Source: a virus. Taken from it: a DNA stretch of 64,000 nucleotides. The position numbers and the translations under genes were made by a program. Under the pieces are notes generated by a model that was not told the origin of the DNA, did not search any database, and saw only the letters and a program-made list of their open reading frames with translations. The stretch covers positions 1-64,000 of the IMG/VR virus record IMGVR_UViG_3300038701_002504; one strand, given 5' to 3'. Every line of letters begins with the position of its first letter. Positions within the stretch are counted from its first letter, which is position 1. Below, piece by piece: positions 4,465 through 57,133 of the stretch.

Positions 4465-4540
4465 GCGCGTGTGGCAGATAGGTAATGCAGGCGCCTCTAA
4501 AACGTTTCGAATGAGGGTTCAAATCCCTTCACGCGCACCA
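4465..4540 (+). tRNA. tRNA-like gene, predicted anticodon CTA (amber-reading)
   Basis: 76 bases. A perfect 7-bp acceptor stem pairs GCGCGTG (4465-4471) with CACGCGC (4530-4536), followed by A and encoded CCA. The T-arm is GAGGG-TTCAAAT-CCCTT, and a 3-bp D-stem GCA/TGC holds a GATAGGTAA loop. The anticodon stem is weak (two G-T pairs, C-G, G-C and a closing C-A mismatch), and the best register gives loop CTCTAAA with U33 and anticodon CTA, complementary to UAG. Other registers break more pairs. Several genes here end in TAG, so this would be a suppressor rather than a full recoding tRNA. Confidence 0.6.
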
Positions 4541-12059: not shown

Positions 12060-12420
12060 TTTTCTTTTATTCGCTGCAAAAAATTATGAAAATGTCTATT
12101 ATGACACGACAGAATTTTACGATGATTTGAAGCGATTTACTTATATTAAAAGACTTTTTAATCAATATGAAACTCGTGGCGATATCAAAGTAAATCTCAT
12201 ATTGAATCACATTATCATTCTATATAACGTCTTTGGTCCCCGAACAACAGAAATGCTTTTTCTTAAACTTGAAGGACAGGAATCTATGTTGAAAACATTC
12301 CTGGTTTATCTACAGAGAATGCCTGACCGTATCACAAATTTAGGTGTTAAATGTCGCATTATAAATAATGATGAGATACCAATTAATCATCAAATAATGG
12401 CAGAACTGGAAAAATTGTGA
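12037..12420 (+). CDS. Conserved T4-superfamily phage protein of unknown function
   Basis: 127 residues starting MLKIDETNFL, overlapping the previous gene by 23 bases. The pattern FAAKNY...TEFYDDLKRFTYIKRLF (about 13-40) and LILNHIIILYNVFG (about 54-67) is familiar from small proteins near structural genes in many T4-like and marine myoviruses, where it has no assigned role. Mostly helical. A GTGA overlap leads into the kinase-like gene. Confidence 0.6.
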   Translation: MLKIDETNFLLFAAKNYENVYYDTTEFYDDLKRFTYIKRLFNQYETRGDIKVNLILNHIIILYNVFGPRTTEMLFLKLEGQESMLKTFLVYLQRMPDRITNLGVKCRIINNDEIPINHQIMAELEKL

Positions 12421-13070
12421 TAAATTTTAAATCCTATTTAGCAGAATTAAACAAACCATTTGAATTGCGTAAATTCAAATCTGCTGTTGCTGACGTAAAA
12501 GATGTTGATACTCGCGATCCATCATGGCAGGGCACTTTACCTGAATTATTCTCTAAATATGGATTTGTTAATGTTGGCGACGGAAAATATGGAACTGTTT
12601 TTGTAAATTCAAAGTATCCATATGCAGTGAAAGTGTTTATGAAAGACACCGCATATTTAAAATTCATTCAGTTTGTGCTCAAGAATCAATCAAATCCATA
12701 TGTGCCGAAGATTCGTGGTAAAGTTGTAAAAATCAATGATATGTTTATGGCAATTCGTATGGAAAAATTATCTCCATCACATACGATTGGAAAAGATATA
12801 GCTCTTAAAGAATTTGTAGAAATGATACAAGATCCTGAGTATTTTTTACAGGGCAAATTAAATTTGATCACTATACATAATGAAGATAAGCATGCTATTA
12901 ATTTATGCAAGTTTTTATTAGCAAATGAAAATCTATTGGATATTCATTTGGGAAATATCATGATGAGAAGAAATCAACCAGTGTTGATCGACCCATTATA
13001 TAACTGGTATAAGGGTGCCCAATTCACAATGGATCCAAACGATATTTCAAATCTAAAAGATGTGTTTTAA
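12417..13070 (+). CDS. Protein-kinase-like protein with capsid-targeting-like N-terminus
   Basis: 217 residues with a GTG start at 12417 (GTGA overlap with the previous stop). The N-terminus INFKSYLAE matches the T4 capsid-targeting pattern and offers an L-A-E cleavage site at residue 10. Downstream are kinase-like elements in order: glycine-rich loop GDGKYGTVF (54-62), AVKVF with K72, a catalytic-loop-like DIHLGNIMM (D175, H177, N180) and VLIDP (D192) as the DFG equivalent. The fold is small for a kinase. If active, it would phosphorylate host proteins; if packaged, from the moment of injection. Both points are inference; the motif order is directly visible. Confidence 0.6.
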   Translation: MINFKSYLAELNKPFELRKFKSAVADVKDVDTRDPSWQGTLPELFSKYGFVNVGDGKYGTVFVNSKYPYAVKVFMKDTAYLKFIQFVLKNQSNPYVPKIRGKVVKINDMFMAIRMEKLSPSHTIGKDIALKEFVEMIQDPEYFLQGKLNLITIHNEDKHAINLCKFLLANENLLDIHLGNIMMRRNQPVLIDPLYNWYKGAQFTMDPNDISNLKDVF

Positions 13071-13558
13071 TGATTTCGTTTAAAGACTATCTTAAAGAAA
13101 ATCTTCTTCCCAAAAAATATATAGCTGTATATTTTACAGAAGAGACGAATAAAAAATTATATAATTATGCAATATCACAGAATTTTGATATATCATACAA
13201 TTGGGATAGAATAAAAATAGATCCAAAAAAATTCAAATTTCATTGTACGCTTTTTTATTCTAAAAATAGAATGGACATTGAGAATATAACTTATAAAGTG
13301 CCGCCTTTAAAAAGTAAAGTATTAGGATTAAGAGTTTTCGGTAATAAAAAAGATGTTTTGGTTCTAAGATTAGATAATGCATTCGGCGAATTAAGAAAAA
13401 AATATTTAGACATGGGTTTGAAAGACACTTTTCCTAAATGGCGTCCACATGTATCTGTTTCTTATAAATATGATAATAAAGAAGATATAGCAAGCGTAGC
13501 AAATTTACCAGATTTTGAACTGGTAGCTTCACATGTTACCATTGAGGATCATAAATGA
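13070..13558 (+). CDS. 2H phosphoesterase (Acb1-like) with capsid-targeting-like N-terminus
   Basis: 162 residues starting ISFKDYLKE (L-K-E at 8-10). Two H-x-T/S motifs define the 2H fold: FHCTLFYS with H58 and T60, and RPHVSVSY with H127 and S129. Length and motif contexts (H-x-T-x-x-Y-S and P-H-V/I-x-x-S-Y) resemble T4 Acb1 (gp57B), which degrades cyclic nucleotides made by CBASS defence; other 2H enzymes act on RNA 2',3'-cyclic ends. The gene overlaps the kinase-like gene in a TAATG junction. A packaged anti-CBASS enzyme is a hypothesis; the 2H assignment is solid. Confidence 0.7.
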   Translation: MISFKDYLKENLLPKKYIAVYFTEETNKKLYNYAISQNFDISYNWDRIKIDPKKFKFHCTLFYSKNRMDIENITYKVPPLKSKVLGLRVFGNKKDVLVLRLDNAFGELRKKYLDMGLKDTFPKWRPHVSVSYKYDNKEDIASVANLPDFELVASHVTIEDHK

Positions 13559-14058
13559 TAGTTGATATTTACCTTTTATATTCATTTGTTAGAAGACTTG
13601 TAACACCATTTAATAAATGGAAAGCTTATGATGATGGAACAATTGATGAGAATGGAAATATTCTAATTCCTAGAAAAGATCTTTCTGGTAATGCGAAAAA
13701 TAATTTTGGTCTATTTGACTTGCTTATCTTAAATTTGAAGAAACTTCTAGCCAAATTGCCAGGCGGATCAACTAAGATTGCCACATTTGGCGCGGCATTG
13801 TTTCTCATTAAAGAAGAGAAAAATATCACAGAAGATAATATTGAAGAAATTATTAACAGAATTCCGACTCTTTTAGAATCTCATATACGCGAAGCTAAAT
13901 TACTCGTTGAAGATGGAGCTCCTGCTGGTATTGTTGGTGGTGGAACAACTCCAATCACATCAAATAGCGTAGGAAATATTGCTCGAAAGAACGACAAATC
14001 TACTCTTCTTTTCAAAAAAACTGTAAAGAGAAAGAAGAAAAAAGATGAAGAGCTTTAA
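13555..14058 (+). CDS. Conserved phage protein of unknown function
   Basis: 167 residues. The N-terminus LLYSFVRRLVTPFNKWKAYDDG (about 6-27) is a recognisable signature of a T4-superfamily protein encoded near head genes. A helical middle follows, then an alanine/glycine-rich segment and a lysine-rich tail ending KRKKKKDEEL. It lacks the F-K-x-F/Y-L-x-E start of its neighbours although it lies between two genes that have it. A virion or assembly role is plausible from context. Confidence 0.5.
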   Translation: MIVDIYLLYSFVRRLVTPFNKWKAYDDGTIDENGNILIPRKDLSGNAKNNFGLFDLLILNLKKLLAKLPGGSTKIATFGAALFLIKEEKNITEDNIEEIINRIPTLLESHIREAKLLVEDGAPAGIVGGGTTPITSNSVGNIARKNDKSTLLFKKTVKRKKKKDEEL

Positions 14059-14641
14059 AGATTATCTTATAGAAGGTCGCGATGCTCCATTATATCATGG
14101 AACCGATTTTCATAGCGCAGCTCTTATTATTCAAACAAATAAAATGAAAGCTACAAACAGACATTACGATGGAAAAGGTAATGCTGTATCTATGACTAGA
14201 AATATGAAATATGCTTTTAGGTTTCCACTATGGGCTGGCGATGCTTATGATGACAATGATGTAGTAGTATTTGAATTAGATCAAAGAAAACTTGCACAAA
14301 GATATAAAATAGTTTCATTTGCATTTGATATTGGTACAGGAAGATCTATGGCAAGAGGGCCGAATGAAATGAGTGAATTTGAAGAAAGAGTGTACTCAAA
14401 CATCGCGAATATTAACAATTTTATAACAAAAATATATGTAAAAGATTTTAAAGCTATGAAGAAAGACTTAGAAAGACAGGCTCCGGACGGTTATATACCT
14501 TTATTAAATAATTGGAAATTATATGATCTTAAAACAAACAAATTCGTCAACAGTGTTAGCAAAAAATCTAACGATAAATTAACAGCATTAAAGATAAAAA
14601 ATAAGAAACTTGACCATGCTATGTCATGGGAATTAGGTTAA
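14045..14641 (+). CDS. ART-like protein with capsid-targeting-like N-terminus
   Basis: 198 residues, the same family as the nine-gene array at 38.8-44 kb but located 24 kb away next to the kinase-like and 2H genes. N-terminus KSFKDYLIEG (L-I-E before G), then LYHGT (Y17, H18, G19, T20), VSMTRN, FELDQRKLAQRYKI, and EFEERV as candidate catalytic glutamate. This order fits the ADP-ribosyltransferase fold (H ... S/T ... E). It starts inside the previous gene and ends just before the primase promoter. Target unknown. Confidence 0.65.
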   Translation: MKSFKDYLIEGRDAPLYHGTDFHSAALIIQTNKMKATNRHYDGKGNAVSMTRNMKYAFRFPLWAGDAYDDNDVVVFELDQRKLAQRYKIVSFAFDIGTGRSMARGPNEMSEFEERVYSNIANINNFITKIYVKDFKAMKKDLERQAPDGYIPLLNNWKLYDLKTNKFVNSVSKKSNDKLTALKIKNKKLDHAMSWELG

Positions 14642-19509: not shown

Positions 19510-21009
19510 ATGATTAATTTTAAAGAATTTTTAAATGAGCATATTGTAGTAGGGGATTTGAAAAAGTCTCCTACTGATTTGTATTATGTATCTCCAGGGA
19601 GGGATGACAAGTCAAAATTGTTCATCTATCCAAAAATCAAAGATATGCAATATGATTTTAAAATGGTATATACTGAAAAAGGTTTCGATGTCATTGATGA
19701 AGCTATATCTCTATGGGACAAGACAGAAAAATATCCATACCCAGAATTAAAAAAGATATTGATGTCAAAATCAAAAGAGATTATGCAAAATACATATCTA
19801 AAAGCTGAGGAAATTTTAGATAAGAATTTGGTGTTAGAAATTGAAAAACAGTTTAATAAACCCGAAAACATTCAACGCGCTATGGAAAGTCTGAGTTCAA
19901 GTATAACATATTCAGGATTTCTGAATAATTATGATTCATACAGAGATTATGCGAAGAAAAACACAAATTCTTATGGTAGAATAATCGTAACATTACAGTC
20001 AATATATAAAATTATCGTTAATACAAACACAAAATCTATATATCCTGAATCAAACCCTATTCAACTTGCTTCAAGAATTGGAAAAATAGGATACGATGGC
20101 CAAAGCAAACAGACGTATATTATTCCTATGTCTGAGGTTTCTATTGATTCTCCCAGAGAAATATATAAAATACTTCAATCATTGGTAAAAAAATATCCAG
20201 AATTAGCCAATTATTCATATATTGATGCTATGTCCAGATCACAAGAAAGAACTTTAATCAAAGATGTTCTTGATGGCGCAGGCGAAGTTGGCAAAATGAA
20301 CACTTCATATAATAACATGTTTTCTCGAAGAAATTCTATCACAGTCTATCATGGAACATCTGAAAAAATTTATAATGATTATATTAAAAATAGCGGATTA
20401 CAACCTGATAAAGGACACCATTATAGCGACAAAATTATGGGACATTCTGATAAAAATGTATATTTCACAGCAAATATAGGTGATGCTCGAAAATATGCAG
20501 TAAGAGCTTCTGGTGCAAGCTCTAGATCAATGGTTCTTGAAGTTAAAATTACTGATTTCGATAAAATCACATTTGATGAAGATAATATGTATGGCGCACT
20601 GAGAAGAATACCTGAAAAAATTATGAAAGAAATAAAAGTTAGATTTTACAATCTCTATCTTCAGAATGATACAATATGGCCATTTGAACACACAAAAGAA
20701 CATGTTGCAGACGTTGGTTTAGATCAAACAGAAATTTCTATTCATAGCTTAAAATACAATCTAGAAAAAAATCCTGGTAATATGAAATTGATAAAACCAC
20801 TATTAGATTTCATTGGATATTATGCTGTGAAAGGCTCAACATTTACTTTCGCATATAATGGAATTATCTCTCCACGCGATATTAAAGTGAAAGAGACATT
20901 TAAATCAAAAGCATATAAAGATTCTGGCGGAGAGGCGGGCGACTGGGAAACAAAGAATTTCAAAAAGAAATATTCAGGGATTTTGAAAAGTTTCAAATCA
21001 GGAAAATAA
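19510..21009 (+). CDS. Large ART-domain protein with capsid-targeting-like N-terminus (Alt analogue?)
   Basis: 499 residues. N-terminus INFKEFLNE (L-N-E at 8-10, followed by H). The first 270 residues are helical and unassigned. An ART-like domain starts at TVYHGTSEKIY (Y280, H281, G282, T283) and continues with VYFTANIGDARKYA (Y318), the H...Y pattern of PARP/diphtheria-toxin-type ADP-ribosyltransferases; the final glutamate cannot be placed confidently. In size and layout it parallels T4 Alt, a packaged ADP-ribosyltransferase trimmed by the head protease, but the sequence signature differs. A late box lies upstream. Confidence 0.6.
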   Translation: MINFKEFLNEHIVVGDLKKSPTDLYYVSPGRDDKSKLFIYPKIKDMQYDFKMVYTEKGFDVIDEAISLWDKTEKYPYPELKKILMSKSKEIMQNTYLKAEEILDKNLVLEIEKQFNKPENIQRAMESLSSSITYSGFLNNYDSYRDYAKKNTNSYGRIIVTLQSIYKIIVNTNTKSIYPESNPIQLASRIGKIGYDGQSKQTYIIPMSEVSIDSPREIYKILQSLVKKYPELANYSYIDAMSRSQERTLIKDVLDGAGEVGKMNTSYNNMFSRRNSITVYHGTSEKIYNDYIKNSGLQPDKGHHYSDKIMGHSDKNVYFTANIGDARKYAVRASGASSRSMVLEVKITDFDKITFDEDNMYGALRRIPEKIMKEIKVRFYNLYLQNDTIWPFEHTKEHVADVGLDQTEISIHSLKYNLEKNPGNMKLIKPLLDFIGYYAVKGSTFTFAYNGIISPRDIKVKETFKSKAYKDSGGEAGDWETKNFKKKYSGILKSFKSGK

Positions 21010-22061: not shown

Positions 22062-22727
22062 ATGAATATTGAGAAAATTGTAGAAGTACTCATCGTAGTA
22101 GCTTTATCTATTGTCCTTACGACAGTAACTTACCTTATTGGTCTTCAATTAGGATGGATTCTTCTTATTGACAATATTGAATTTATTGGTGTTGTCCTGA
22201 ATTATTCATGCGTTATTCTTACTGTTCGGCAAAACATCTGGGCATGGCCTATTGGTATTTTAGCTGTAATTTTTCTGGGAATTCTTTTCTGGAATTATTC
22301 TCTATATTCAAGTTTAGCTCTTTCCATTCTTTACTTCCTTCCGGTTCAGTTTCTTGGCTGGTGGGCGTGGCTTAAAGGCGGTAAAGATCGAACTGAATTA
22401 AATGTCTCAAATCTCACATTCAACCAATGGGGTATGATTATTATTAGTGTACTTCCTCTATATTTTGGTGTATCATATCTTAATGTGTTTTTAGGTGGAG
22501 CCTCTCCATTTCTTGACACTGCAATTTTGATTGTTTCAATTCTTGCTCAATATCTTCTTATCTGGAAGAAAATTGAGAGTTGGGGAGCTTGGATTATTGT
22601 GAATATTGTGTCGATCTATGTTTATGGTACAACTGGAGCGTTCCTACTAGCAACACAATATCTATTATTCCTTGGAAATGCCGTATATGGATACATCATG
22701 TGGAAAAAGGATTCGAAAAATGTCTAG
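22062..22727 (+). CDS. pnuC: Nicotinamide riboside transporter PnuC
   Basis: 221 residues with about seven TM helices. The core motif region ..TVRQNIWAWPIGILA.. (about 55-69) followed by FLPVQFLGWWAWL (about 94-106) is diagnostic for PnuC. PnuC lets nicotinamide riboside enter by facilitated diffusion, trapped by phosphorylation. The next gene is NadR, whose kinase domain does this, and the reading frames overlap by 8 bases, forming a matched uptake-and-activation pair. Ends in TAG. Confidence 0.93.
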   Translation: MNIEKIVEVLIVVALSIVLTTVTYLIGLQLGWILLIDNIEFIGVVLNYSCVILTVRQNIWAWPIGILAVIFLGILFWNYSLYSSLALSILYFLPVQFLGWWAWLKGGKDRTELNVSNLTFNQWGMIIISVLPLYFGVSYLNVFLGGASPFLDTAILIVSILAQYLLIWKKIESWGAWIIVNIVSIYVYGTTGAFLLATQYLLFLGNAVYGYIMWKKDSKNV

Positions 22728-23760
22728 AATTGCAATCACGCTTGGAAAGTTCTATCCTTTTCACGAAGGTCATAAAGCATTAATAGATTTTATGCTTGAA
22801 TATCCGTTGGATTTTGATGAACATTTCACATTGGTATGTGGAAAACCTGGAGATTTAATTCCAACTAAAGTGCGATTTGAGGCAGTACGTCAATATAATC
22901 ACAGAAATAATTATGATGTTGATTATATTGACGACCCTGATATGCCAGATTATCCAAAGGATGATGTAGACTTTTGGGAAAAATGGGTGAATGTAATTGA
23001 AAAAAATCTGTGGAAAGATACAGATGAAGTTTATCTTTTTACATCCGAAGTATACGGCGAACAGTTTGCTCGAGAGATTCAAGCAAGAATTCCATATGTA
23101 AAGAAATGTGTTCATATTCCATTTGATCCAGATCGAACATCTTATTCTATTTCTGGATCTGAAATTAGGGATGATTTTCTCAATATGGAATATGCTGTTG
23201 ACAAACATATTATCAATTATTTGACTAAATATGTTTATTTTGTCGGGGCAGAGTCCACAGGTAAAACTACAACAGCTAAAAGAATTTCAAATAGAATTCT
23301 TTCCTCGCTATATGTGTCTGAATATGCTCGCGGATATCTTGAAATGAAGGGTGCTCGATTAACGCCTGAAAAATTTCATGATATCATTAATGGCCAATAT
23401 GCACAGGAATTATCATCTACTAGATCTTGTCATCTGTTCAAATTTTATGACACATGTCTTATCACAACCTATGGCTGGGCTAAACTGTATTATCCTGAAA
23501 TTGCTTTCTATATTAAAAAAATGTTTGACCTGAAAGCAATTTACACTAGCAGAAATACTCTTTTTGTGATGATGGATGATGACATTCCATTCACGCCTGA
23601 TAGTTTACGATATGGTGTGGATAAAAGAGATACAACAACAGAATATTGGGCAAGTATTCTGAACGAATTCGATATTCCATTTGTGATGTATAATCGTGAA
23701 ATGGAAAACAAAATTATTGACGTATTTAACGAAAAGGGTTTATATAATGGAATTTCCTGA
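22720..23760 (+). CDS. nadR: NadR: NMN adenylyltransferase / nicotinamide riboside kinase
   Basis: 346 residues in two domains. N-terminal nucleotidyltransferase: TLGKFYPFHEGH (7-18, the H-x-G-H ATP site) and SISGSEIRDD (about 145-154). C-terminal kinase: P-loop GAESTGKTTTAKR (about 173-185) and a later Y...D region. It converts NR to NMN and NMN to NAD+. No N-terminal repressor HTH is present, so it is an enzyme only. ATG 22720 is chosen over upstream codons because homology begins at MSRIAITLG. Overlaps pnuC upstream and the ligase downstream. Confidence 0.93.
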   Translation: MSRIAITLGKFYPFHEGHKALIDFMLEYPLDFDEHFTLVCGKPGDLIPTKVRFEAVRQYNHRNNYDVDYIDDPDMPDYPKDDVDFWEKWVNVIEKNLWKDTDEVYLFTSEVYGEQFAREIQARIPYVKKCVHIPFDPDRTSYSISGSEIRDDFLNMEYAVDKHIINYLTKYVYFVGAESTGKTTTAKRISNRILSSLYVSEYARGYLEMKGARLTPEKFHDIINGQYAQELSSTRSCHLFKFYDTCLITTYGWAKLYYPEIAFYIKKMFDLKAIYTSRNTLFVMMDDDIPFTPDSLRYGVDKRDTTTEYWASILNEFDIPFVMYNREMENKIIDVFNEKGLYNGIS

Positions 23761-30281: not shown

Positions 30282-31682
30282 ATGTCAAATATTAATCTCA
30301 TTCTACAAGCCGATTCATACAAATATTCACACTTTCAGTTGTTTCCTGAAGGAACTGAAATCAATAACTCGTATATTGAATCTCGAGGTGTTGATAATAC
30401 ATCAGGTCTTCCAGCAAACACTGAAATTGTGTTTTTCGGCCTGCAAGCATACATTCAAGAATATCTCACTAAGCCAGTTACGATGAATGACGTTGACGAA
30501 GCTGAAAAGCTTATTACAGCTCACGGTCTTCCATTCAATCGTAGTGATTGGGAAATCATCGTAAATGAGTTTGACGGATATCTTCCAATTTATATTGAAG
30601 CTCTACCTGAAGGAACAGTTGTAAAACCTGGAGTTGCAATGGTTCAGGTTCGTAATACTGATCCACGTTTCGCATGGCTTGCAAGCTTTATGGAAACAGC
30701 AATTCTTCGTGCTGTATGGTATCCTTCAACTGTTGCAACACTATCACGCGAAGCAAAGAAAATCATTAAGAAGTTTCTTGTTGATACTGCTGATAATACG
30801 GATGGTCTCCCATTCAAACTTCATGACTTTGGTGCTCGCGGAACCTCAAGCTCTGAAACAGCAATGCTTGGTGGTATGGCCCACCTTGTGAACTTCATGG
30901 GAACCGATACTGTGGAAGCTCTCGTTGGAGCAATTCGTTATTATGGAGCTGATGGTCCAGTTGGATACTCAATTCCAGCATCTGAACACTCAACAATTAC
31001 ATCATGGGGCCGCGAAAATGAAGTCAAGGCATATGAAAATATGCTTGACAAATTTGCGAAACCAGACGCAATTATCGCATGTGTGAGTGATAGCTACAAT
31101 ATCTATAATGCCGTGGAAAATCTATGGCCTTCCCTGAAGGACAAGATCGTAGAATCTGGTGTGACACTTGTTATTCGTCCTGACTCTGGAGACCCTGTAA
31201 CTGTTGTAACAGAGATTACAGAAACTCTTTCTCAGAAATTTGGTTACACTACGAATAGTAAGGGATATAAAGTTCTGAATAATGTACGTGTTATTCAGGG
31301 TGATGGTATTGATATCACATCTCTTCGTAGCATTCTGTATGGTCTTATGAGCAAAGGTTTCTCTGCTGATAATATCGCGTTCGGTATGGGCGGCGGCCTT
31401 CTTCAGAAGGTCAATCGAGATACCCTTAAATTCGCAATGAAAACTAATGCTATCCGTAACGATGGAAAATGGATCGATGTATACAAGCAACCCATCGGTT
31501 CTGAATTTAAGAAGTCAAAGGCTGGTATTCTCAAAACTGTAAATAGGAATGGCGAATTTATTACAGTTCGAGCTAGTGAAGCTGATGATGAATTAAATTC
31601 AATGTTGACGGTGTTTATAAACGGTAATATTCCAACACCGTACACTTTTGACCAAGTACGTGCTAATGCGGAGGTGAAGTAA
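30282..31682 (+). CDS. nadV: Nicotinamide phosphoribosyltransferase (NadV/NAMPT)
   Basis: 466 residues, close to human NAMPT (491). Typical blocks: QADSYKYSHFQLFPEG (9-24), a central FGARGTSSSETAMLGG (about 187-202), PASEHSTITSWGRE (about 232-245) and SGDPVTVV (about 303-310). The enzyme makes NMN from nicotinamide and PRPP, recycling the nicotinamide released by NAD+-consuming enzymes. The next gene, in a TAATG overlap, encodes an NMN adenylyltransferase, so the two form a complete two-step route to NAD+. Expressed from its own dyad promoter. Confidence 0.95.
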   Translation: MSNINLILQADSYKYSHFQLFPEGTEINNSYIESRGVDNTSGLPANTEIVFFGLQAYIQEYLTKPVTMNDVDEAEKLITAHGLPFNRSDWEIIVNEFDGYLPIYIEALPEGTVVKPGVAMVQVRNTDPRFAWLASFMETAILRAVWYPSTVATLSREAKKIIKKFLVDTADNTDGLPFKLHDFGARGTSSSETAMLGGMAHLVNFMGTDTVEALVGAIRYYGADGPVGYSIPASEHSTITSWGRENEVKAYENMLDKFAKPDAIIACVSDSYNIYNAVENLWPSLKDKIVESGVTLVIRPDSGDPVTVVTEITETLSQKFGYTTNSKGYKVLNNVRVIQGDGIDITSLRSILYGLMSKGFSADNIAFGMGGGLLQKVNRDTLKFAMKTNAIRNDGKWIDVYKQPIGSEFKKSKAGILKTVNRNGEFITVRASEADDELNSMLTVFINGNIPTPYTFDQVRANAEVK

Positions 31683-32701
31683 TGCGTAAAGTTAGTATTT
31701 TCATTGGCCGTTTTCAACCGTTCCATATGGGACATTATGCAATTGTTAAGTCTGCTCTTGAGCAGACTGACTTCCTTGTGATGGTTTTGGGATCACATAA
31801 GAAATCCATTAATACACGTGACCCACTCACGACACACCAGCGAATTGATATTATCAAAAGATCTTTATCTCAAGAACAGCTAGAGCGTATTCGATTTGTA
31901 AAAGTTGAAGACTATGAATATAATCTGGATAAGTGGATCGCATCTGTAAATACTGCTATTGCGAATGCTAATCTTCCTTGGCATTCTGGACCAACTTCAT
32001 ATTATCTTGCTGGTATGATGAAGGATCATAGTTCGTTTTATCTTAATCTTTTTCCTAATTACAAATCAATTATTTGTGAGACAGACGAGAATAATACTCT
32101 TAGCTCAACATTTATTCGTAAAATGTGGTATGAAGGAGAACAAGGTCTATATGATGCGTTTGTTTCAACAGAAGCATATAATTTGTTCGATGTGTATATT
32201 GAACAAAATGATAAGAAATATAGTCTAAAATACGAATACAATTTTGAACAGGAATATCCTGGAAAATGGGGTAAAGGTCCTCACCTAACTGTTGATTCTT
32301 GTGTTGTTCAAGCTGGACATGTGCTTCTTATTCAACGCGGTAAGGAATATGGCCACAATAAGTGGGCATTACCAGGTGGGTTTGTGAATCCTTATGAAAC
32401 CACTCTTGATGCCTCACTTCGCGAATTGGATGAAGAAACACAGATTAAATTACCAATGAAGATTTTACGTGGTAGTTTGGTTTCTTCTAAACTTTATGAC
32501 TCTCCATATAGGTCAAACCGTGGTAGAGTTGTAACGAATGCATTTCAATATCGTCTTTCCGATGTTGGACCTTTGCCTAAAGTTGTTGGTTCTGATGACG
32601 CAAAAGATGCACAATTTGTTCCAATTTCTAAGTTTTTGACAATGCAGGATGAAATGTTTGAAGATCACTACTCCATGATTTGCGATATATTAAAATTATA
32701 A
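31682..32701 (+). CDS. Bifunctional NMN adenylyltransferase / Nudix hydrolase (NadM-Nudix)
   Basis: 339 residues. N-terminal nucleotidyltransferase with IGRFQPFHMGH (8-18) and STFIRKMWYEG (about 142-152). C-terminal Nudix domain with GGFVNPYETTLDAS and LRELDEET (about 236-257), matching G-x5-E-x7-R-E-x2-E-E. The first half makes NAD+ from NMN and ATP; the Nudix half in bacterial relatives hydrolyses ADP-ribose or related nucleoside diphosphates. Overlaps nadV by one base. ADP-ribose removal would fit with the many ART-like genes, but this link is inferred. Confidence 0.9.
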   Translation: MRKVSIFIGRFQPFHMGHYAIVKSALEQTDFLVMVLGSHKKSINTRDPLTTHQRIDIIKRSLSQEQLERIRFVKVEDYEYNLDKWIASVNTAIANANLPWHSGPTSYYLAGMMKDHSSFYLNLFPNYKSIICETDENNTLSSTFIRKMWYEGEQGLYDAFVSTEAYNLFDVYIEQNDKKYSLKYEYNFEQEYPGKWGKGPHLTVDSCVVQAGHVLLIQRGKEYGHNKWALPGGFVNPYETTLDASLRELDEETQIKLPMKILRGSLVSSKLYDSPYRSNRGRVVTNAFQYRLSDVGPLPKVVGSDDAKDAQFVPISKFLTMQDEMFEDHYSMICDILKL

Positions 32702-33907: not shown

Positions 33908-34417
33908 ATGTTAAATGTAAAGACTATTGAAGCTGAAATTGAAAACGAGATTGCAGAAGCCAAAGCAGCAATCGAAAAGTTGAATGAAGAAATCAAGAAT
34001 CGTTCTCAACAGGTATTTGCAAATGCAATCAGTAAGTATTTTACTGCATTTCCAATTGTTGAATATATCACATGGACTCAGTATACACCTGGATTTAATG
34101 ATGGTGAACCATGCGAGTTCGGTGTGAATGGTCCATATATTCGTCTAAAAGGCGATCCATTTGACGATGAAGATGATTATGATGAGGGTACCTATATTCC
34201 AAGTGAATGGAGTCGAAAGAATTATCCAAAAGATGCTGCAAAATTTGATGAAAAATATGGAACACATTTGAATTCAATTCAGAAAGCAAAGTCTGTTGCT
34301 GAGAGTATTATTGGATGTATGGATGAATCTGTATTGAATATGATGTATGGCGATGGAAGTAAGATTAAAATCTATGCCGATCGCATCGATGTAACTGATT
34401 ATGATTGTGGGTACTAA
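33908..34417 (+). CDS. Hypothetical acidic protein
   Basis: 169 residues. N-terminal coiled coil (IEAEIENEIAEAKAAIEKLNEE, about 6-28) followed by a domain with VEYITWTQYTPGFNDGEPCEF and an acidic loop (DPFDDEDDYDEG). The T-W-x-Q-Y-T-P-x-F-N-D-G-E-P motif is common in uncharacterised phage proteins. Stops three bases before the macro-domain gene. Confidence 0.6.
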   Translation: MLNVKTIEAEIENEIAEAKAAIEKLNEEIKNRSQQVFANAISKYFTAFPIVEYITWTQYTPGFNDGEPCEFGVNGPYIRLKGDPFDDEDDYDEGTYIPSEWSRKNYPKDAAKFDEKYGTHLNSIQKAKSVAESIIGCMDESVLNMMYGDGSKIKIYADRIDVTDYDCGY

Positions 34418-34419
34418 TT

Positions 34420-34872
34420 ATGAGAGTCGTTCAGGGAGATTTACTTGAAGCGAAAGAAGAAATCATTGCGCATGGGTGTAACTGCCAGGGTGTAATGGGT
34501 TCGGGTGTTGCAAAAGTTATTAAAGAAAAATGGCCAGAAGCATTTGAAAGGTATGTAGACGATTTAAGTAACTTTTCCACCAAACTTGGCGATGCGACAA
34601 TAGTTTTTACTGAAGAAGGTAAATGCGTTTTTAATCTTCTTACTCAGAACAATTATGGTACAGTAGATCGTATGGTAAACTATGCGGCTCTTATTACATC
34701 TCTGCAATTCGCTATTGTATTGTATCATATTGAGACAGGCAAAAATGTTACAAGTATAGCTATTCCAAAGATAGGTGCTGGTTTAGGTGGTGGTAACTGG
34801 GAAATTATTCATCAACTTTTAGAAGATTTTGAAAAAATGTATAATGTGGAATTTGTATTATATATCATTTAA
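34420..34872 (+). CDS. Macro-domain protein (ADP-ribose-processing)
   Basis: 150 residues, the length of a bare macro domain. Key segments: VVQGDLLEAKEEIIAHGCNCQGVMGSGVA (3-31; the N-C-N-x-x-G-x-x-G-x-G-V-A ligand loop), then IAIPKIGAGLGGGNW (about 120-134; second phosphate-binding loop). Such proteins hydrolyse ADP-ribose-1''-phosphate or remove ADP-ribose from glutamate or aspartate. With eleven ART-like proteins in the window it is a natural candidate to reverse or clean up their products. ATG 34420 is preferred over 34405 because the domain starts at MRVVQG. Confidence 0.88.
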   Translation: MRVVQGDLLEAKEEIIAHGCNCQGVMGSGVAKVIKEKWPEAFERYVDDLSNFSTKLGDATIVFTEEGKCVFNLLTQNNYGTVDRMVNYAALITSLQFAIVLYHIETGKNVTSIAIPKIGAGLGGGNWEIIHQLLEDFEKMYNVEFVLYII

Positions 34873-38729: not shown

Positions 38730-38737
38730 TATAAATA
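38730..38737 (+). promoter_or_regulatory. Late promoter box (plus strand)
   Basis: Exact TATAAATA 35 bases before the first gene of the ART-like array. It faces the minus-strand box at 38755; the two transcription units overlap at their starts. Confidence 0.65.
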
Positions 38738-38771: not shown

Positions 38772-39398
38772 ATGAACAGTTTTAAACAATTTCTCGAAGA
38801 AGGTAGAGATGCTCCTTTATATCATGGGACTGATACTCATGCTGCAATTCAAATCATTGATGCCGATACACTCGAAGGAAGAACCGACAACCATTCAAGA
38901 CTCGAGCCTTTAAATTCATGGGGCGAAAAGAAAAAAGAGTTAGTTGTAAATGTGAATCATTTCAAACCAAAAAAATATACAAAATTTAACGGTTCGTCTT
39001 TTTCTCGCGATATGAGGAGATCATTGCATTGGAGAGGCGGAGGACTGTGTTTTGAAGTAGATCAGAGAAAACTATCTCAAAGACATAAGTTAGTTCCTAT
39101 CAACATCTTTATGGCTATGGGTTATAATAAACATGCGAAGGACGAAGAACTTGCAGAAGAATTTGTGATTGGAGATATTAAAAACTTTAGACGATATATA
39201 ACAAGAATCATATTTCTAAAAGAATGGGATTTATCCACATTTTTATTAAATGCTCAATTCTCTTTAAACCCAGACAAACTTCTGGGTTTCAGATATTTTC
39301 TATATTCAGAAAAGAAAACATATGATGTAAAATCGAAAAAGGATTTTATTAATATGTTGAAAGATTTGAAAATTTATGAAAAGATTATGAATGGCTAA
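38772..39398 (+). CDS. ART-like array gene 1 with capsid-targeting-like N-terminus
   Basis: 208 residues, the longest in the array. NSFKQFLEEG (L-E-E before G) then LYHGT (Y17, H18, G19, T20). The second motif reads SSFSRD rather than SLTR, so the central residue differs, followed by FEVDQRKLSQRHKLV and LAEEFVIGDIKN. The first 30 residues after the H motif contain a long insertion rich in charged residues. Driven by the late box at 38730. Overlaps gp4 by 8 bases. Confidence 0.65.
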   Translation: MNSFKQFLEEGRDAPLYHGTDTHAAIQIIDADTLEGRTDNHSRLEPLNSWGEKKKELVVNVNHFKPKKYTKFNGSSFSRDMRRSLHWRGGGLCFEVDQRKLSQRHKLVPINIFMAMGYNKHAKDEELAEEFVIGDIKNFRRYITRIIFLKEWDLSTFLLNAQFSLNPDKLLGFRYFLYSEKKTYDVKSKKDFINMLKDLKIYEKIMNG

Positions 39399-39843
39399 GT
39401 ATAAACAAGGCGTCTTCAAACCGCTTAGACCAGAAAAATATAAGGGAGACCTTAAGAAGAACCCACCGGTGTATCGCTCAAGCTGGGAATTAAAGCTTAT
39501 GGTCAAATTGGACAATCACCCTGACGTGATCCAGTGGTCATCAGAAGGTATCGTAATTCCCTATAAGTCTCCAATCGATAATAAGTATCATAGATATTTT
39601 GTGGATTTCTATGTTAAGTTAAAAGATAAAGATGGAAATATACAGGAAATGATTATTGAAGTTAAACCATTGGGCCAAGTTATGGAACCAAAAAGAAGAA
39701 AGAATCAACAGGATAGAACTTTTCTACGTGAAGTAATGACCTGGGGAGTGAACCAAGCAAAATGGGATGCTGCTCGCGCTGCTGCAAAAAATAAAGGATG
39801 GAAATTTGAAATATTCACAGAGGATGATCTTAATGTCCTTTAA
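39391..39843 (+). CDS. 4: Head completion protein (T4 gp4-like)
   Basis: 150 residues, matching T4 gp4 (150). YRSSWELKLMVKLDNHP (about 28-44), VIPYKSPIDNKYHRYFVDFYV (about 55-75) and IIEVKP (about 87-92) form the TnsA-like nuclease-type fold (E..., D...E-V-K). In T4, gp4 completes DNA-filled heads with gp2. It has no capsid-targeting N-terminus and sits between array genes 1 and 2, in the T4 position next to gp2 and gp53. Confidence 0.85.
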   Translation: MAKYKQGVFKPLRPEKYKGDLKKNPPVYRSSWELKLMVKLDNHPDVIQWSSEGIVIPYKSPIDNKYHRYFVDFYVKLKDKDGNIQEMIIEVKPLGQVMEPKRRKNQQDRTFLREVMTWGVNQAKWDAARAAAKNKGWKFEIFTEDDLNVL

Positions 39844-40363
39844 ACAATTCCTAGAAGAAGGTAGAGATGCTCCTTTATATCATGTTACTCCATTGGATAA
39901 CTTTTTTGATATAGCTATGTCAAATAGACTAAATGCAAGTAATTTATGGACATATGGAGCTAAACCCACAGTATCATTTACTCGTAATTATAAATTTTGT
40001 TTCGAATTTGCCAGACAACATCTGGATACTGGAACAGGCCAATTGAGAGATACGAAAGATATCGCAATACTTGAAATCGATCAAAGAAGACTTTCACAGA
40101 GATATAAGATTATTCCTTATAGAGATTTAATTAATTTGGGTGATGGATCAAGACTACATTATAATGAATTTGAAGAATATATTCAGGGAGATGTGAAGAA
40201 TGTAAGCGACTATATTATAAAAACTCATATACCCGCAAGAGAATATTGGCATTCAAACGATGTTGCGTTATCGTATAAAAAGAAATACAGGAGATTTATA
40301 TCATTAGTAATGGACTTTAAACCCTGGGATACTAAATCAAGAAAGTTTATTGATGCCATATAG
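39833..40363 (+). CDS. ART-like array gene 2 with capsid-targeting-like N-terminus
   Basis: 176 residues from ATG 39833 inside the gp4 end; stop TAG. MSFKQFLEEG then LYHVT (Y16, H17, V18, T19): the glycine after the histidine is replaced by valine. Motif two is VSFTRN, motif three EIDQRRLSQRYKIIP, and the glutamate block is EFEEYIQGDVKN. A distinctive aromatic tail (REYWHS, then RRFISLVMDF) separates it from its relatives. Confidence 0.65.
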   Translation: MSFKQFLEEGRDAPLYHVTPLDNFFDIAMSNRLNASNLWTYGAKPTVSFTRNYKFCFEFARQHLDTGTGQLRDTKDIAILEIDQRRLSQRYKIIPYRDLINLGDGSRLHYNEFEEYIQGDVKNVSDYIIKTHIPAREYWHSNDVALSYKKKYRRFISLVMDFKPWDTKSRKFIDAI

Positions 40364-40862
40364 TTTCAAACAATTTCTTGAAGAGGGACGAGACGCTCCG
40401 TTATATCATAGCACTGCTTATCGTTCAGGTTGTATCATCTTTGAAGATAATGAAATACGCGCGAGAACATATCATATCAAAAAGTCCATGTTAGATGATA
40501 AAGCAAAAATAAAAAAAGCGTTCTCCAAGCGTGTTTTTGGTGGCTCTGATGAATATGTTGATGGTGTTGCAGGTGTTTCACTAACTCGTAATTTTAAGTT
40601 TGCAAAATCCTGGGGTGATATAATATTTGAAGTAGATCAGAAAAGATTAACTCAAAGATATAAGATTATTCCATTTAACTATTTTGTTGACCAGAGCAGT
40701 AAACCCGCAAATTTTAGAAAAGAAGCAGAAGAATTTGTAATTGGCAACATATTTCCTTTAAATAAATATCTTATAAAAATACATATAAGCGTTGATTATA
40801 TGTCTGAATTTGAAGAACGATATGGAAATAAACTTAAAGGAATTGAAGTTGTTGGGGTTTAA
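40353..40862 (+). CDS. ART-like array gene 3 with capsid-targeting-like N-terminus
   Basis: 169 residues from ATG 40353 (an in-frame TTG at 40350 is less likely). MPYSFKQFLEEG has two extra residues before the motif. LYHST (Y18, H19), GVSLTRN, FEVDQKRLTQRYKIIP and EAEEFVIGNI. Between motifs it has a lysine-rich insertion (KKSMLDDKAKIKKAF). Its 3' end overlaps the TTG start proposed for gene 4. Confidence 0.62.
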   Translation: MPYSFKQFLEEGRDAPLYHSTAYRSGCIIFEDNEIRARTYHIKKSMLDDKAKIKKAFSKRVFGGSDEYVDGVAGVSLTRNFKFAKSWGDIIFEVDQKRLTQRYKIIPFNYFVDQSSKPANFRKEAEEFVIGNIFPLNKYLIKIHISVDYMSEFEERYGNKLKGIEVVGV

Positions 40863-41355
40863 AGAATATTTATTAGAAGGACGAGATGCTCCTTTGTTTC
40901 ATGGTTCGTCATCAGGCAATGTAAACAACATGCTTGAAGAGAATATGATATCCTCGGAAACACTCCAGAAGATTGACGGAAAAAACCTAAAAGGTGTATC
41001 TCTTACAAGATCATATAAATTTGCATTAACTCATATTGGTCCAGCTTCATTTAAGCATGGCTATGACGTAATACTTGAATTAGATCAAAGACTTCTTTCT
41101 CAGAACTATAAGATTATTCCTTTTAATTGGTCTCCATCGTGGAAAGGCCCGCCTAAAGCAAGATATATGGATGATCTAGGTTCAGAGTTTGAAGAATTTG
41201 TGGTCGGTCCTATTCGTAATTTGAATAAGTATATTGTTAAAATACACGCATCACACGAAATCTATTATAATGCTTCACAGGAAACAAAAGATAGATCTTC
41301 ATTTTTATTGAAACATCCTAAACTCTTTATTGATAGAAAGTTTGTCAATGCTTAA
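40849..41355 (+). CDS. ART-like array gene 4 (probable TTG start)
   Basis: About 168 residues. No ATG precedes GFKEYLLEG closely; the nearest (40822) lies deep in gene 3 and would add 9 residues. A TTG at 40849, 8 bases after AAAGG (40836-40840), gives a start that aligns with the paralogues. Motif one is LFHGS, with F replacing the usual Y and S replacing T. GVSLTRS, LELDQRLLSQNYKIIP and EFEEFVVGPI follow. The cleavage-like site is L-L-E before G. Confidence 0.58.
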   Translation: MLGFKEYLLEGRDAPLFHGSSSGNVNNMLEENMISSETLQKIDGKNLKGVSLTRSYKFALTHIGPASFKHGYDVILELDQRLLSQNYKIIPFNWSPSWKGPPKARYMDDLGSEFEEFVVGPIRNLNKYIVKIHASHEIYYNASQETKDRSSFLLKHPKLFIDRKFVNA

Positions 41356-41884
41356 TTTCAAACAATACTTGGAAGAAGGTAGAGATGCTCCTTTATATCA
41401 TGCAACTGAGTACAGAGCTCTTTTGAATATTCTTATAACGAATAAATTGGAAGCCCTGAATTATCATGAGTTTAATAGTAAAATAAAAAAGAAACATAGA
41501 AATTCCTGGGGTGATGTGAAGATTATATCATTTACACGAAACATAAGATTTGCTAGAGCTTGGTTAAATCAATTAATGGGTTATGGACCTATACTTGAAC
41601 TAGATCAGAGAAAACTTGCGCAGAGATATAAATTTGTTCCATTTAACTTTTTTTCCTATGGTGCTAGAGTCGACACCGATGAACTTGGTATAGACTATGA
41701 TGGCGATTATGGTATGAATTTCCCATATAATCAATTTGAGGAAAATGTGATAGGTGATATTAAGAACCTCGATAAATATTTAACTAAAATAATAGTTGTA
41801 GATGATAGATGGAAATCCGATAAAATAATATCGTCACATCCTCTTTTATATGATCTAAAAACGAAAAGGTTTATCAATGCTTAA
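41348..41884 (+). CDS. ART-like array gene 5 with capsid-targeting-like N-terminus
   Basis: 178 residues from ATG 41348, in the shared AATGCTTAATTT junction with gene 4. LNFKQYLEEG then LYHAT (A for G). Motif two ISFTRN, motif three LELDQRKLAQRYKFVP, glutamate block QFEENVIGDIKN. A glycine/aspartate-rich loop (DYDGDYGMNFPYN) precedes the glutamates. Ends RFINA, the common C-terminal form. Confidence 0.65.
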   Translation: MLNFKQYLEEGRDAPLYHATEYRALLNILITNKLEALNYHEFNSKIKKKHRNSWGDVKIISFTRNIRFARAWLNQLMGYGPILELDQRKLAQRYKFVPFNFFSYGARVDTDELGIDYDGDYGMNFPYNQFEENVIGDIKNLDKYLTKIIVVDDRWKSDKIISSHPLLYDLKTKRFINA

Positions 41885-42383
41885 TTTTAAACAATTCCTA
41901 GAAGAAGGTAGAGATGCTCCTTTATATCACGGGACTGATGCAACACTTAAAATTCTTGAGACAAATACATTGAAAGGTACACGCAGCCATTCATATCAGA
42001 GCCTGATGATTGATAAGGATGGAGAAGCAAAAGGAGTTTCTCTTACAAGAAACATAAAAGTAGCTTCACAGTTTCAAAAATGGGCTGATCACAGCAATTA
42101 TGCAATCTTTGAGTTGGATCAGAAGAAACTTGCTCAGAATCATAAAATCATTCCTGTAAACTTCTGGGGAGCTCTGAAAGGTGAGCCCGCAAGATCAAAA
42201 TCAATTCCAAAAGATGAAGTGGGTTCTGAATATGAAGAATTTGTGATGGGTGATATTAAGAACCTCGATAAATATATCATAAGAATATTCATTTTTAGTA
42301 AGAAGAGTAAGTTGTATGGAAAGCCGAATGTTCTTCTTGTAAAGAAGAACGATCTCATACTTGGAAAGCATAGAAGAAGATGA
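41877..42383 (+). CDS. ART-like array gene 6 with capsid-targeting-like N-terminus
   Basis: 168 residues. LNFKQFLEEG, LYHGT, GVSLTRN, FELDQKKLAQNHKIIP and EYEEFVMGDIKN, the most complete match to the family consensus. The tail is basic and ends GKHRRR instead of the usual FINA, and the junction to gene 7 is a 4-base ATGA overlap, so this end differs from the other cassettes. Confidence 0.65.
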   Translation: MLNFKQFLEEGRDAPLYHGTDATLKILETNTLKGTRSHSYQSLMIDKDGEAKGVSLTRNIKVASQFQKWADHSNYAIFELDQKKLAQNHKIIPVNFWGALKGEPARSKSIPKDEVGSEYEEFVMGDIKNLDKYIIRIFIFSKKSKLYGKPNVLLVKKNDLILGKHRRR

Positions 42384-42937
42384 ACAGTTTTAAGCAATAT
42401 TTGGAAGAAGGTCGAGCTGGGCCTCTGTATCATGCTACGAATGTCGATAGAGCTTCGTTTATTGTGGGTGATAATAAAATAATGGCTAAAACGATACATA
42501 AGTTAAAGCCAGATTATAGAACAATAAATGGTGTTTCTCTTACACGCGATTATAAATTTGCGATACATTTCGGTTTTCATGAAATGAGATATTTTACTCT
42601 TGTTATATTTGAACTTGATCAAGCAAAACTTTCTCAAAAATTTAAAATAATGCCAATCAATTATTATAACACAACATTTCCAATAGAACAAGGGTTTAGA
42701 CCATATAAAGGTGCTAGAAGATCTCAAGGTCGTCACCTGCTGGGTGATGAGAACAATGAATCGGAAGAGTTTGTGCTAGGTAATATAAAAGATGTATCAA
42801 AATATATTGTAAAAATTCATGTATGTTCTGACTTAACAAAGGAAAGAATAGATGAACATTATCCAAGACTGGCGAAACATCCTAAACTTTGGTTTGCTGA
42901 AAAGAATAACGAAAAAGGTTATTTCTACAATGCTTAA
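42380..42937 (+). CDS. ART-like array gene 7 with capsid-targeting-like N-terminus
   Basis: 185 residues. NSFKQYLEEGRAGPLYHAT: the RDAP of the paralogues is RAGP here. GVSLTRD, FELDQAKLSQKFKIMP and SEEFVLGNIKD follow. A basic insertion (YKGARRSQGRH) lies before the glutamates. Ends GYFYNA at the shared AATGCTTAATTT junction. Confidence 0.63.
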   Translation: MNSFKQYLEEGRAGPLYHATNVDRASFIVGDNKIMAKTIHKLKPDYRTINGVSLTRDYKFAIHFGFHEMRYFTLVIFELDQAKLSQKFKIMPINYYNTTFPIEQGFRPYKGARRSQGRHLLGDENNESEEFVLGNIKDVSKYIVKIHVCSDLTKERIDEHYPRLAKHPKLWFAEKNNEKGYFYNA

Positions 42938-43517
42938 TTTCAAACAATACTTGGAAGAAGGACGAGATGCTCCACTTTATCATACTACAGATGAATCTTA
43001 TATGCGCTACATCATCGAAAAAAATTCAATAAAAGCGAAAACAGAACATCAAGTTGGTTATAGACCTGGTAATAGATCAGGTAATAAATGGAAAGATGTG
43101 ATATCTCTTACACGTTCTATAAAATTTGCTCATCGTTGGGGAGAAAGAAAAGGTTCTGGTTATTATTTTATATTTGAACTAGATCAGAGAAAACTTTCTC
43201 AGAGACATAAATTTGTTCCCTATAACCATTTTGGCGATCATTATTATAATGACGAAAAAGGTGCAGCTCGTAGAATGAATGATGTTACTGATTTTAATTT
43301 TCCTATTAATCAATATGAGGAGAATATTATTGGAGATATCAAAAATTTAAATCAATATTTAACTAAAATAATATTATCCGAAAAATTATATAATGGATAT
43401 TTTTCAGAAAAAAATTCAGATAGACAAGATGCAGTTATTAAATATGGAAAAGAAGTAGTGTATCATAAACTGTTATGGTATAATGGAAAATTCATCAATG
43501 CTCATTATTATAAGTAG
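42930..43517 (+). CDS. ART-like array gene 8 with capsid-targeting-like N-terminus
   Basis: 195 residues from ATG 42930; stop TAG. LNFKQYLEEG, LYHTT, ISLTRS, FELDQRKLSQRHKFVP and QYEENIIGDIKN. Closest to gene 5: the first 33 bases of the two genes are nearly identical, and both have NFP-type residues ahead of QxEEN. The tail carries an extra helical region (ARRMND, then SEKNSDRQDAVIK). Confidence 0.65.
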   Translation: MLNFKQYLEEGRDAPLYHTTDESYMRYIIEKNSIKAKTEHQVGYRPGNRSGNKWKDVISLTRSIKFAHRWGERKGSGYYFIFELDQRKLSQRHKFVPYNHFGDHYYNDEKGAARRMNDVTDFNFPINQYEENIIGDIKNLNQYLTKIILSEKLYNGYFSEKNSDRQDAVIKYGKEVVYHKLLWYNGKFINAHYYK

Positions 43518-43523
43518 GAATCA

Positions 43524-43988
43524 ATGAATAACTTTAAACAATTCTTAGAAGAAGGTCGCGATGCTCCTTTATATCATGGAACATATGCTGAAGCAGCTGA
43601 TGAAATTATAAAAGATAACACTATGATAGCCTATACAAATCACGGAAGAAAAGTAACTTCATTTTCTTATTATTCAAAAAATTTTAGAGGTAAAGTTGAG
43701 CAGGATGGCATATCTCTTACGCGTGATATTCGCTTTGCATGGTCGTGGAATGGACAAGTAGTATTTGAACTTGACCAAAGAAAGCTTGCGCAAACTCATA
43801 AGATTGTTCCCATTAAGATAGAAGGTGTTTTAAGAGGAAAAAATCGAAATGCTTTTATGCATATGGCAGAAGAATTTGTAATCGGACCTATTAAAAACTT
43901 TGATAAATACTTAATAAGAATTCATTTAAAAAAAGAATGGACTTATCCAGAATCTTTATTAAAACATCCTCTAATTAAGTGGCATTAA
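43524..43988 (+). CDS. ART-like array gene 9 with capsid-targeting-like N-terminus
   Basis: 154 residues, the shortest. NNFKQFLEEG, LYHGT, GISLTRD, FELDQRKLAQTHKIVP and MAEEFVIGPIKN. It lacks the C-terminal FINA block, ending LIKWH where the gp2 gene begins (TAATG), so its tail may have been trimmed by the array boundary. Separated from gene 8 by 6 bases, the only array junction without overlap. Confidence 0.63.
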   Translation: MNNFKQFLEEGRDAPLYHGTYAEAADEIIKDNTMIAYTNHGRKVTSFSYYSKNFRGKVEQDGISLTRDIRFAWSWNGQVVFELDQRKLAQTHKIVPIKIEGVLRGKNRNAFMHMAEEFVIGPIKNFDKYLIRIHLKKEWTYPESLLKHPLIKWH

Positions 43989-56309: not shown

Positions 56310-56696
56310 ATGAGACAAGTAATATACAGAGACCTTAAAAAGTCATTCGACAAACATCCTGTGAGTAATGATCTTCTCACAATATCCGAAGAGGATGCTG
56401 TAAAAGACTCTATTATGAATATTGTCTTCACATCTCCGTATGAGAGATATCGTAATCCAAGATTTGGCGCAGGAATTCCTGCTGATTTGTTTGAAAATTT
56501 GAGCCCACAGACCGAATACCAAGTAAAGAACCGTATTGAGAATGCAATTAATACATACGAGCCACGTGCTATTCTTCAGAATGTTGCTGTTGCAGCAAAT
56601 CTAGATCAGAATAATTATGTTGTGAGTATTCAATTCCGCGTGAGAAACAGTTTTGAAATTATTACTGTACAGAATATTCTAAGGAGAATACGATGA
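56310..56696 (+). CDS. 25: Baseplate wedge protein (T4 gp25-like)
   Basis: 128 residues (T4 gp25 is 132). IVFTSPYERYRNPRFGAGIPADLFE (about 38-62) and RIENAINTYEPRAIL (about 74-88) are diagnostic of the gp25/lysozyme-like wedge family (also TssE). gp25 with gp6 and gp53 forms the core of the wedge. Overlaps the next gene by 4 bases. Confidence 0.92.
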   Translation: MRQVIYRDLKKSFDKHPVSNDLLTISEEDAVKDSIMNIVFTSPYERYRNPRFGAGIPADLFENLSPQTEYQVKNRIENAINTYEPRAILQNVAVAANLDQNNYVVSIQFRVRNSFEIITVQNILRRIR

Positions 56697-57133
56697 CATT
56701 TAAAGAGTATCTAACAGAGCTATTCGACAGACCTGCCAAAATCTATACACTTGCTGATAATTTGACGGACAGGGAAGCCATATTCACTGTTGGAAATAAC
56801 AAGTACAGTATATATTTAAGTAAGGAACCCATCAGAAAAATCGTATGGAACGTAACATTTGCTATTATAGAAATAGATGGTATGCCTGTGGGTGGTATAG
56901 ATAGCATTAAAACAACAAATCTGAATGTTGATAAAAATGTTGTATTCGCAACAGTAATTAAGTTTATTGAGTCACATCACAGAAAAGAAGATACATATAA
57001 ATTTACCACATGGAAGATTGAAAAGTCGCGCATTAGACTTTATGATACATTATCCAAAAGATTGGCAAAAAAATATAATATGAAAGTAGAGAAATCAGTA
57101 TTTGGAAATGTTATTGAATGGCAATTGTCATAA
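56693..57133 (+). CDS. Hypothetical protein with capsid-targeting-like N-terminus
   Basis: 146 residues starting TFKEYLTELF (L-T-E at 7-9, followed by L). The remainder is beta-rich in the first half (KYSIYLSKEPIRKIVWNVTFAIIEID) and ends in a basic helical part. No enzyme motif is visible. It lies between gp25 and gp6, in a place that varies between T4-like phages. The cleavage-site residue after E is L rather than G, so processing is less certain than in the array. Confidence 0.5.
   Translation: MTFKEYLTELFDRPAKIYTLADNLTDREAIFTVGNNKYSIYLSKEPIRKIVWNVTFAIIEIDGMPVGGIDSIKTTNLNVDKNVVFATVIKFIESHHRKEDTYKFTTWKIEKSRIRLYDTLSKRLAKKYNMKVEKSVFGNVIEWQLS

Follow-up and report, generated by a model that had tools for sequence, protein, structure and literature searches.

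The closest described counterparts of the genes discussed here include the internal proteins and ADP-ribosyltransferases (ARTs) of phage T4. The first ten residues of the T4 internal protein IPIII suffice for packaging; positions 4 and 7 are important for targeting, and positions 8 and 10 for processing, and the gp21 protease cuts after L/I-x-E (PMC9026906). Each of the T4 proteins Ip1-3 inhibits its own GmrSD enzyme (PMC12373910). A 2022 survey describes an enrichment of ARTs in myoviruses, with ten or more in phage G, and proposes head packaging from context (PMC9503650). Here we describe an array of ART-like genes at positions 38772-43988 of the IMG/VR virus record IMGVR_UViG_3300038701_002504; the window that was analyzed comprises bases 1-64000 of this record, which as a whole is 109,508 bases long. 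On balance, the array probably encodes DarT1-like ARTs that would be packaged into the head, trimmed by gp21, and injected.

The array holds nine homologous open reading frames (ORFs) on the plus strand, and neighbors mostly overlap by 4-11 bases (Table 1). A preliminary description had presented nine tandem ART-like proteins. The nine homologs are present, but the run is not strictly tandem, as a gp4-like head-closure gene that is not a member of the family is second in the row; the genome carries at least 12 copies, nine in the array and three elsewhere, two of the latter adjoining terminase genes. The paralogs share 29-44% pairwise identity with the first copy. Several of the listed ORFs have over-long starts, and the probable starts are at 39833, 40353, 40852, 41348, and 42930. 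All nine array ORFs begin with the leader FKx[FY]LxEGR followed by PL[YF]Hx[TS], and the earlier statement that FKx[FY]LxEG stands before [YF]Hx[TS] in every array protein thus holds for both motifs (9/9). Its two other motifs need qualification: S-x-T-R is exact in eight of the nine (the gene at 38772 has SFSR) and an EE pair is found in all nine, but E-x-E-E is exact in only about five.

The leader resembles the T4 targeting peptide. The N terminus of T4 IPII and IPIII is MKTYQEFIAE/A (here and below, the slash marks the cleavage site, predicted in the case of the new proteins), and array members with the same offset from the initiator Met have F at position 4, F/Y at 7, L at 8, and E at 10, followed by G. 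Because these are the residues that mutagenesis showed to be important in IPIII, we liken the leader to its targeting peptide. In one IMG/VR relative (L011), the protein begins with MKTYQEFLTE/GRDAPLYH. Across the whole record (35,261 codons), the core pattern [FY]xx[FY][LI]xE stands at the start of 17 genes and has 10 further matches away from gene starts; about 0.27 matches at gene starts are expected. Moreover, the leader Leu is encoded by CTA, CTC, CTT, TTA, or TTG among the paralogs; as the codons differ at synonymous sites, it is the amino acids of the leader that are under selection. With T4 as a positive control, a nucleotide version of the leader pattern matches only ipII, ipIII, and gp61.1. 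As an observation on T4 itself, the N terminus of gp61.1 (L086:967-1131), MKTFKEFIKE, matches the full capsid-targeting pattern, and gp61.1 may be an unrecognized internal protein.

Five of the 17 leader-bearing gene starts belong to proteins outside the ART-like family (P about 1e-5). These are a T7 gp0.7-type kinase-like protein, Acb1, a 499-aa protein with a PARP-like segment, a DUF6934-like protein (Table 1), and, next to the portal gene, a small protein of the head core. Since the leader also heads kinase, Acb1, PARP-like, and head-core proteins, it is not a by-product of ART homology. The same arrangement is seen elsewhere. Alishewanella phage Slickus01 has its own leader, which is borne by a block of ARTs and other proteins, among them an ART-PolyVal protein. 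Its eight matches all lie at gene starts, with none elsewhere among 44,091 codons; a neighbor with a variant of the leader was called kinase-like from its sequence rather than from a family match. A second IMG/VR phage has an FKxFLxE leader on seven ARTs of the family and on an Acb1 (1.7e-19), as well as on proteins of unassigned type. The latter phage also encodes (L067:18345-19463, minus strand) a 364-aa protein without a Pfam match that has MNFKKFIAE as its leader and contains VYRGL, a motif characteristic of R-S-E ARTs.

The phage has the machinery that such a leader would use. At about 79-92 kb of the record, the gene order is T4-like (gp17, gp18, gp19, gp20, gp21, gp22-like, gp23), with gp21 identified as Peptidase_S77 (5.9e-38) and gp23 matching at 8e-129. 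The T4-type late promoter box TATAAATA lies 34 nt ahead of the ATG of paralog 1. Of its 32 occurrences in the record, 17 precede a gene start by 12-45 nt, vs 9% for 55 permuted octamers, and the box is found before gp18, gp19, gp20, gp22, and gp23. Another TATAAATA (L005:12876) heads the operon that holds two distal ART-like copies and the terminase. Late expression of the array is thus predicted from the promoter box, which suits packaged proteins. The closest gp23 is that of Rhizobium phage RHph_I1_18 (66%) and a relative of the array is located in a Hyphomicrobiales metagenome-assembled genome, and the host is therefore likely alphaproteobacterial.

The comparison of leader and S77 protease in other phages covers complete or reference phages only; fragments were left out because a first S77 tally had mixed them in. 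Peptidase_S77 is present in Slickus01 (leader MKID-LYESLLEE/G), Salicola SCTP-2 (MKIKDLME/A), the Vibrio phages (MKKFNEFAxELxE/A), the Microcystis phage (MIKLKSLLQE/I), SP-15 (MPIHFLRE/Y), and LR756508 (MQKLQDLLFE/A). No S77 was found in Sen-NF and Dickeya JA29, in which the homologs have no leader and start at the H strand (MILYHF and MKPLYHF, respectively), in Lu11 and HRDY3, which have another leader without LxE (MKIQLAVA and MEMMLALA), or in RHEph12, which has no LxE. An [LIV]xE leader is hence present in 6/6 lineages with S77 vs 0/5 without (Fisher P 0.002, with the reservations that the lineages are not independent of one another and that a diverged protease could escape detection). In Lu11 (L061:3881-9908) and HRDY3 (L060:2465-3777), ARTs and unrelated proteins share the leader M[KR]IQLA[VL]A or MEMxLALA, possibly an independent leader class. 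The five exact matches to its pattern in Lu11 all fall within one gene run.

Collectively, the match to IPIII, the unrelated bearers, gp21, the late promoter, and the absence of LxE from homologs in phages without S77 strongly support the reading of the leader as a T4-type capsid-targeting peptide, as the preliminary description had proposed. We consider it quite likely that the array proteins are packaged and cleaved.

With respect to the family itself, no Pfam or NCBIfam model matched the array above its cut-off, and PHROGs, for which a convincing E-value was the criterion in place of a curated cut-off, gave only weak and inconsistent matches. Library matches at chance level, to guanylate kinase, SHOCT, and others, were below cut-off, inconsistent between paralogs, and rejected. 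The family looks unrecognized by curated models and DarT1-like, as judged from sequence and models. The scans of IMG/VR yielded 15 loci and then 30, partly overlapping, and the genome collection yielded one. A tblastn search of phage records with one paralog gave none, and relatives emerged only when other members served as queries and the E-value limit was relaxed. One profile recovers all homologs in cultured or reference phages (3e-23 to 3e-6). In a tree, the paralogs of the source genome interleave with those of other phages, and they are thus old and retained. Because of this pairing with genes of other phages and the synonymous differences in the leader codons, a recent tandem duplication and gene conversion of the leader were both rejected. 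One relative (L021:698-1540) is a fusion in which a further, partial ART-like segment precedes an internal MALMEGRDAPLYH, giving two possible LxE sites.

Structure prediction, proposed earlier as a check of the ART fold, supports it in both proteins that were modeled. The AlphaFold model of paralog 1 has a predicted local distance difference test score (pLDDT) of 74.5, and its top 13 Foldseek matches in the PDB are all ART-superfamily entries or complexes, including DarT, tRNA 2′-phosphotransferase (KptA), a guanine-specific ART, and Scabin. The model of paralog 9, built with 36 homologs, has a pLDDT of 83.2 and a predicted template modeling score of 0.78, and matches tRNA 2′-phosphotransferase (KptA), pertussis S1, DarT, and Arr. 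The ART signature residues are present, i.e., the strand-1 His, the second-motif Ser/Thr, and the strand-5 Glu, and L8, E10, R12, H18, R67, Q85, and E116 are invariant in the 36 homologs. The strand-1 residue is His in 12/12 copies, not Arg as in the R-S-E ARTs T4 Alt, ModA, and ModB, so the distinction from these enzymes drawn in the preliminary description stands. In the alignment with DarT1, the S/T of S-x-[ST]-R falls on S63, which takes the place of the Tyr in H-Y-E. Because of the conserved His and this alignment, the family looks like an H-S-E type of enzyme, unlike Alt and Mod and closest to DarT1. As with packaging, we hold it to be quite probable that the array proteins are active ARTs, with NAD+ chemistry predicted from fold and conserved residues.

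Several observations weigh against this account. The IMG/VR homologs were retrieved by patterns that contained part of the leader, and their leaders are for this reason not independent evidence. A Tyr follows the cut in SP-15 and one Microcystis phage copy has Val at position 8. Homologs in several other phages sit among DNA-metabolism genes, and packaging is therefore not universal. The short helix at the N terminus might in principle be a part of the ART fold. The individual PDB fold matches are weak (best E 0.003, template modeling score about 0.4-0.5), with nearly every good match an ART, and the family profile reaches DarT1 at only E 0.12 (hmmsearch).

The strongest of the alternatives, although unlikely, is that the ARTs are synthesized in the infected cell but at no point packaged, and that their N-terminal helix is simply a component of the fold. 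In its favor, conservation reaches past any cleavage site to R12 and the DAPLYH stretch, and the leaderless homologs of JA29 and Sen-NF make unpackaged use possible. These same homologs begin at the first strand, however, which makes the helix dispensable; its pLDDT is below that of the core, the same leader is found on proteins outside the family, and a late promoter precedes the array. The view of the leader as a mere part of the ART fold is disfavored, as unrelated proteins bear it and leaderless homologs exist.

Rather unlikely as well is that the proteins are packaged but are not enzymes, i.e., that they are binding proteins, decoys, or inhibitors with an ART fold. The known T4 internal proteins are inhibitors rather than enzymes (PMC12373910) and the fold matches are distant. 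Set against this, nearly all of the 36 diverged sequences retain the H, S-x-[ST]-R, and E, and the phage also has an NAD+ salvage set (NMN [nicotinamide mononucleotide] transporter, NAMPT-like, NadR-like, NMNAT-NUDIX) and a macro domain. The last two would fit NAD+ use, although sets of this kind may also act against NAD+-depleting defenses. That the proteins are late, DarT-like toxins or superinfection-exclusion proteins acting on host or rival-phage nucleic acid is very unlikely: the nearest structural and profile relative is indeed DarT, a DNA-modifying toxin, but no antitoxin-like partner (NADAR or macro) is present in the array or beside each copy, with the single macro domain detected in the record lying 4 kb upstream, and the twelve copies share a head-targeting leader and are located among late head genes.

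Table 1. Array genes, further family copies, other leader-bearing proteins, and associated features. Positions refer to the window unless marked "record"; a slash marks the predicted cut.
Feature	Position	Strand	Leader	Match or remark
T4-type late promoter box TATAAATA	38730..38737	+
ART-like paralog 1	38772..39398	+	MNSFKQFLEE/G
gp4-like head completion/closure protein within array, TnsA-like nuclease fold	39391..39843	+		PHROG 218 E 5e-54; PF08722 2e-23
ART-like paralog 2	39833..40363	+	MSFKQFLEE/G
ART-like paralog 3	40353..40862	+	MPYSFKQFLEE/G
ART-like paralog 4	40852..41355	+	GFKEYLLE/G	TTG start, uncertain
ART-like paralog 5	41348..41884	+	MLNFKQYLEE/G
ART-like paralog 6	41877..42383	+	MLNFKQFLEE/G
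ART-like paralog 7	42380..42937	+	MNSFKQYLEE/G
ART-like paralog 8	42930..43517	+	MLNFKQYLEE/G
ART-like paralog 9	43524..43988	+	MNNFKQFLEE/G
ART-like paralog 10	14045..14641	+	MKSFKDYLIE/G
ART-like copy	~77689-78246 (record)			adjoins terminase genes
ART-like copy	~78648-79160 (record)			adjoins terminase genes
T7 gp0.7-type protein kinase-like	12417..13070	+	MINFKSYLAE/L	PHROG 15752 E 3.5e-10
Acb1 (anti-CBASS 2H phosphoesterase)	13070..13558	+	MISFKDYLKE/N	PF23474 2.8e-11, above cut-off; Acb1 structures by phmmer 0.002-0.009
499-aa protein, PARP-like segment (YHGT at about residue 281)	19510..21009	+	MINFKEFLNE/H	PF00644 E 0.01, below cut-off
DUF6934-like protein	56693..57133	+	MTFKEYLTE/L	PF22028 2e-4, below cut-off
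Macro domain, possible ADP-ribose remover, possibly connected	34405..34872	+		PF01661 1e-10
NAD+ salvage set	22062-23760, 30282-32701

The reading of the array proteins as packaged ARTs leads to the following model. The proteins would be made late and pulled into the prohead core by the ten-residue T4-type leader, with its aromatics at positions 4 and 7. Cleavage by gp21 after LxE would leave GRDAPLYH as the new N terminus, and the trimmed proteins would be packaged with the DNA and then ejected into the next host. There, each would act as a DarT1-like mono-ADP-ribosyltransferase, using the strand-1 His, the second-motif Ser/Thr, and the third-motif Glu, on its own host or defense target. The many copies might have different targets by analogy with T4 Ip1-3, and we lean toward a different target for each copy. 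The one leader would also load the T7-type kinase, Acb1, and the PARP-like protein. The preliminary description, which holds up in part (leader, fold, and the difference from R-S-E enzymes), had missed the leader on these three proteins. There is perhaps an even chance that, in general, phages with S77 load unrelated effectors (DarT1-like ARTs, R-S-E/PARP-like ARTs, a T7-type kinase, Acb1) into the head via one phage-specific cleavable leader, such that anti-defense and takeover enzymes act before phage genes are read.

If this is true, the few internal proteins of T4 become a general delivery system, and the leader is a readable tag for injected proteins. The leader would vary between phages and be constant within each, and virion arsenals could be read straight from genomes. 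Acb1 could arrive with the particle, ahead of signaling by CBASS (cyclic oligonucleotide-based antiphage signaling system). The phage also contributes an ART family that curated models do not cover, and with it at least 12 candidate enzymes for host modification. As a separate observation on the window, ARAGORN reports a tRNA with a CUA anticodon (labeled Pyl) at 4465-4540, possibly an amber suppressor.

How does the array compare with known systems? It shares with T4 IPI, IPII, and IPIII the ten-residue leader (aromatics at 4 and 7, L/I at 8, and E at 10), the gp21 site, and the presence of several small proteins that are injected in T4 and predicted to be so here; however, the bodies of the T4 proteins are unrelated GmrSD inhibitors, and there are three of them in T4 vs at least 12 ARTs and other enzymes here. 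T4 Alt is an ART that is trimmed by gp21, packaged, and injected, as predicted for the array proteins, but Alt is of the R-S-E type, large, and single, whereas the array proteins are small, of the putative H-S-E type, DarT1-like, and present in many copies. DarT1, a DNA guanine ADP-ribosyltransferase, has in common with them the predicted fold, the strand-1 His, Ser at the Tyr position, and the catalytic Glu; the array proteins differ in sequence (E 0.12), in having no antitoxin partner, and in carrying a capsid-targeting leader. The packaging proposal in PMC9503650 rests on MuF/portal fusions and gene neighborhood, not on a common cleavable leader, and the array family is not among the families named in the sections consulted. 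Head paralog family B of SPN3US (20 members, PMC5694885) is likewise a large paralog family packaged in the head, as predicted for the array, but its function is unassigned, its protease motif is different, and it has no link to ARTs. A literature search, with most subscription journals outside it, did not find the array family, the combination of packaged ARTs, leader-bearing injected proteins, and a large head paralog family, or one leader for kinase, Acb1, and ARTs. Head-packaged ARTs (PMC9503650), injected proteins with a leader (PMC9026906), and large head paralog families (PMC5694885) were known separately; new here is a previously unrecognized DarT1-like family that has expanded to twelve copies, together with the sharing of one leader by ARTs, a kinase, and Acb1.

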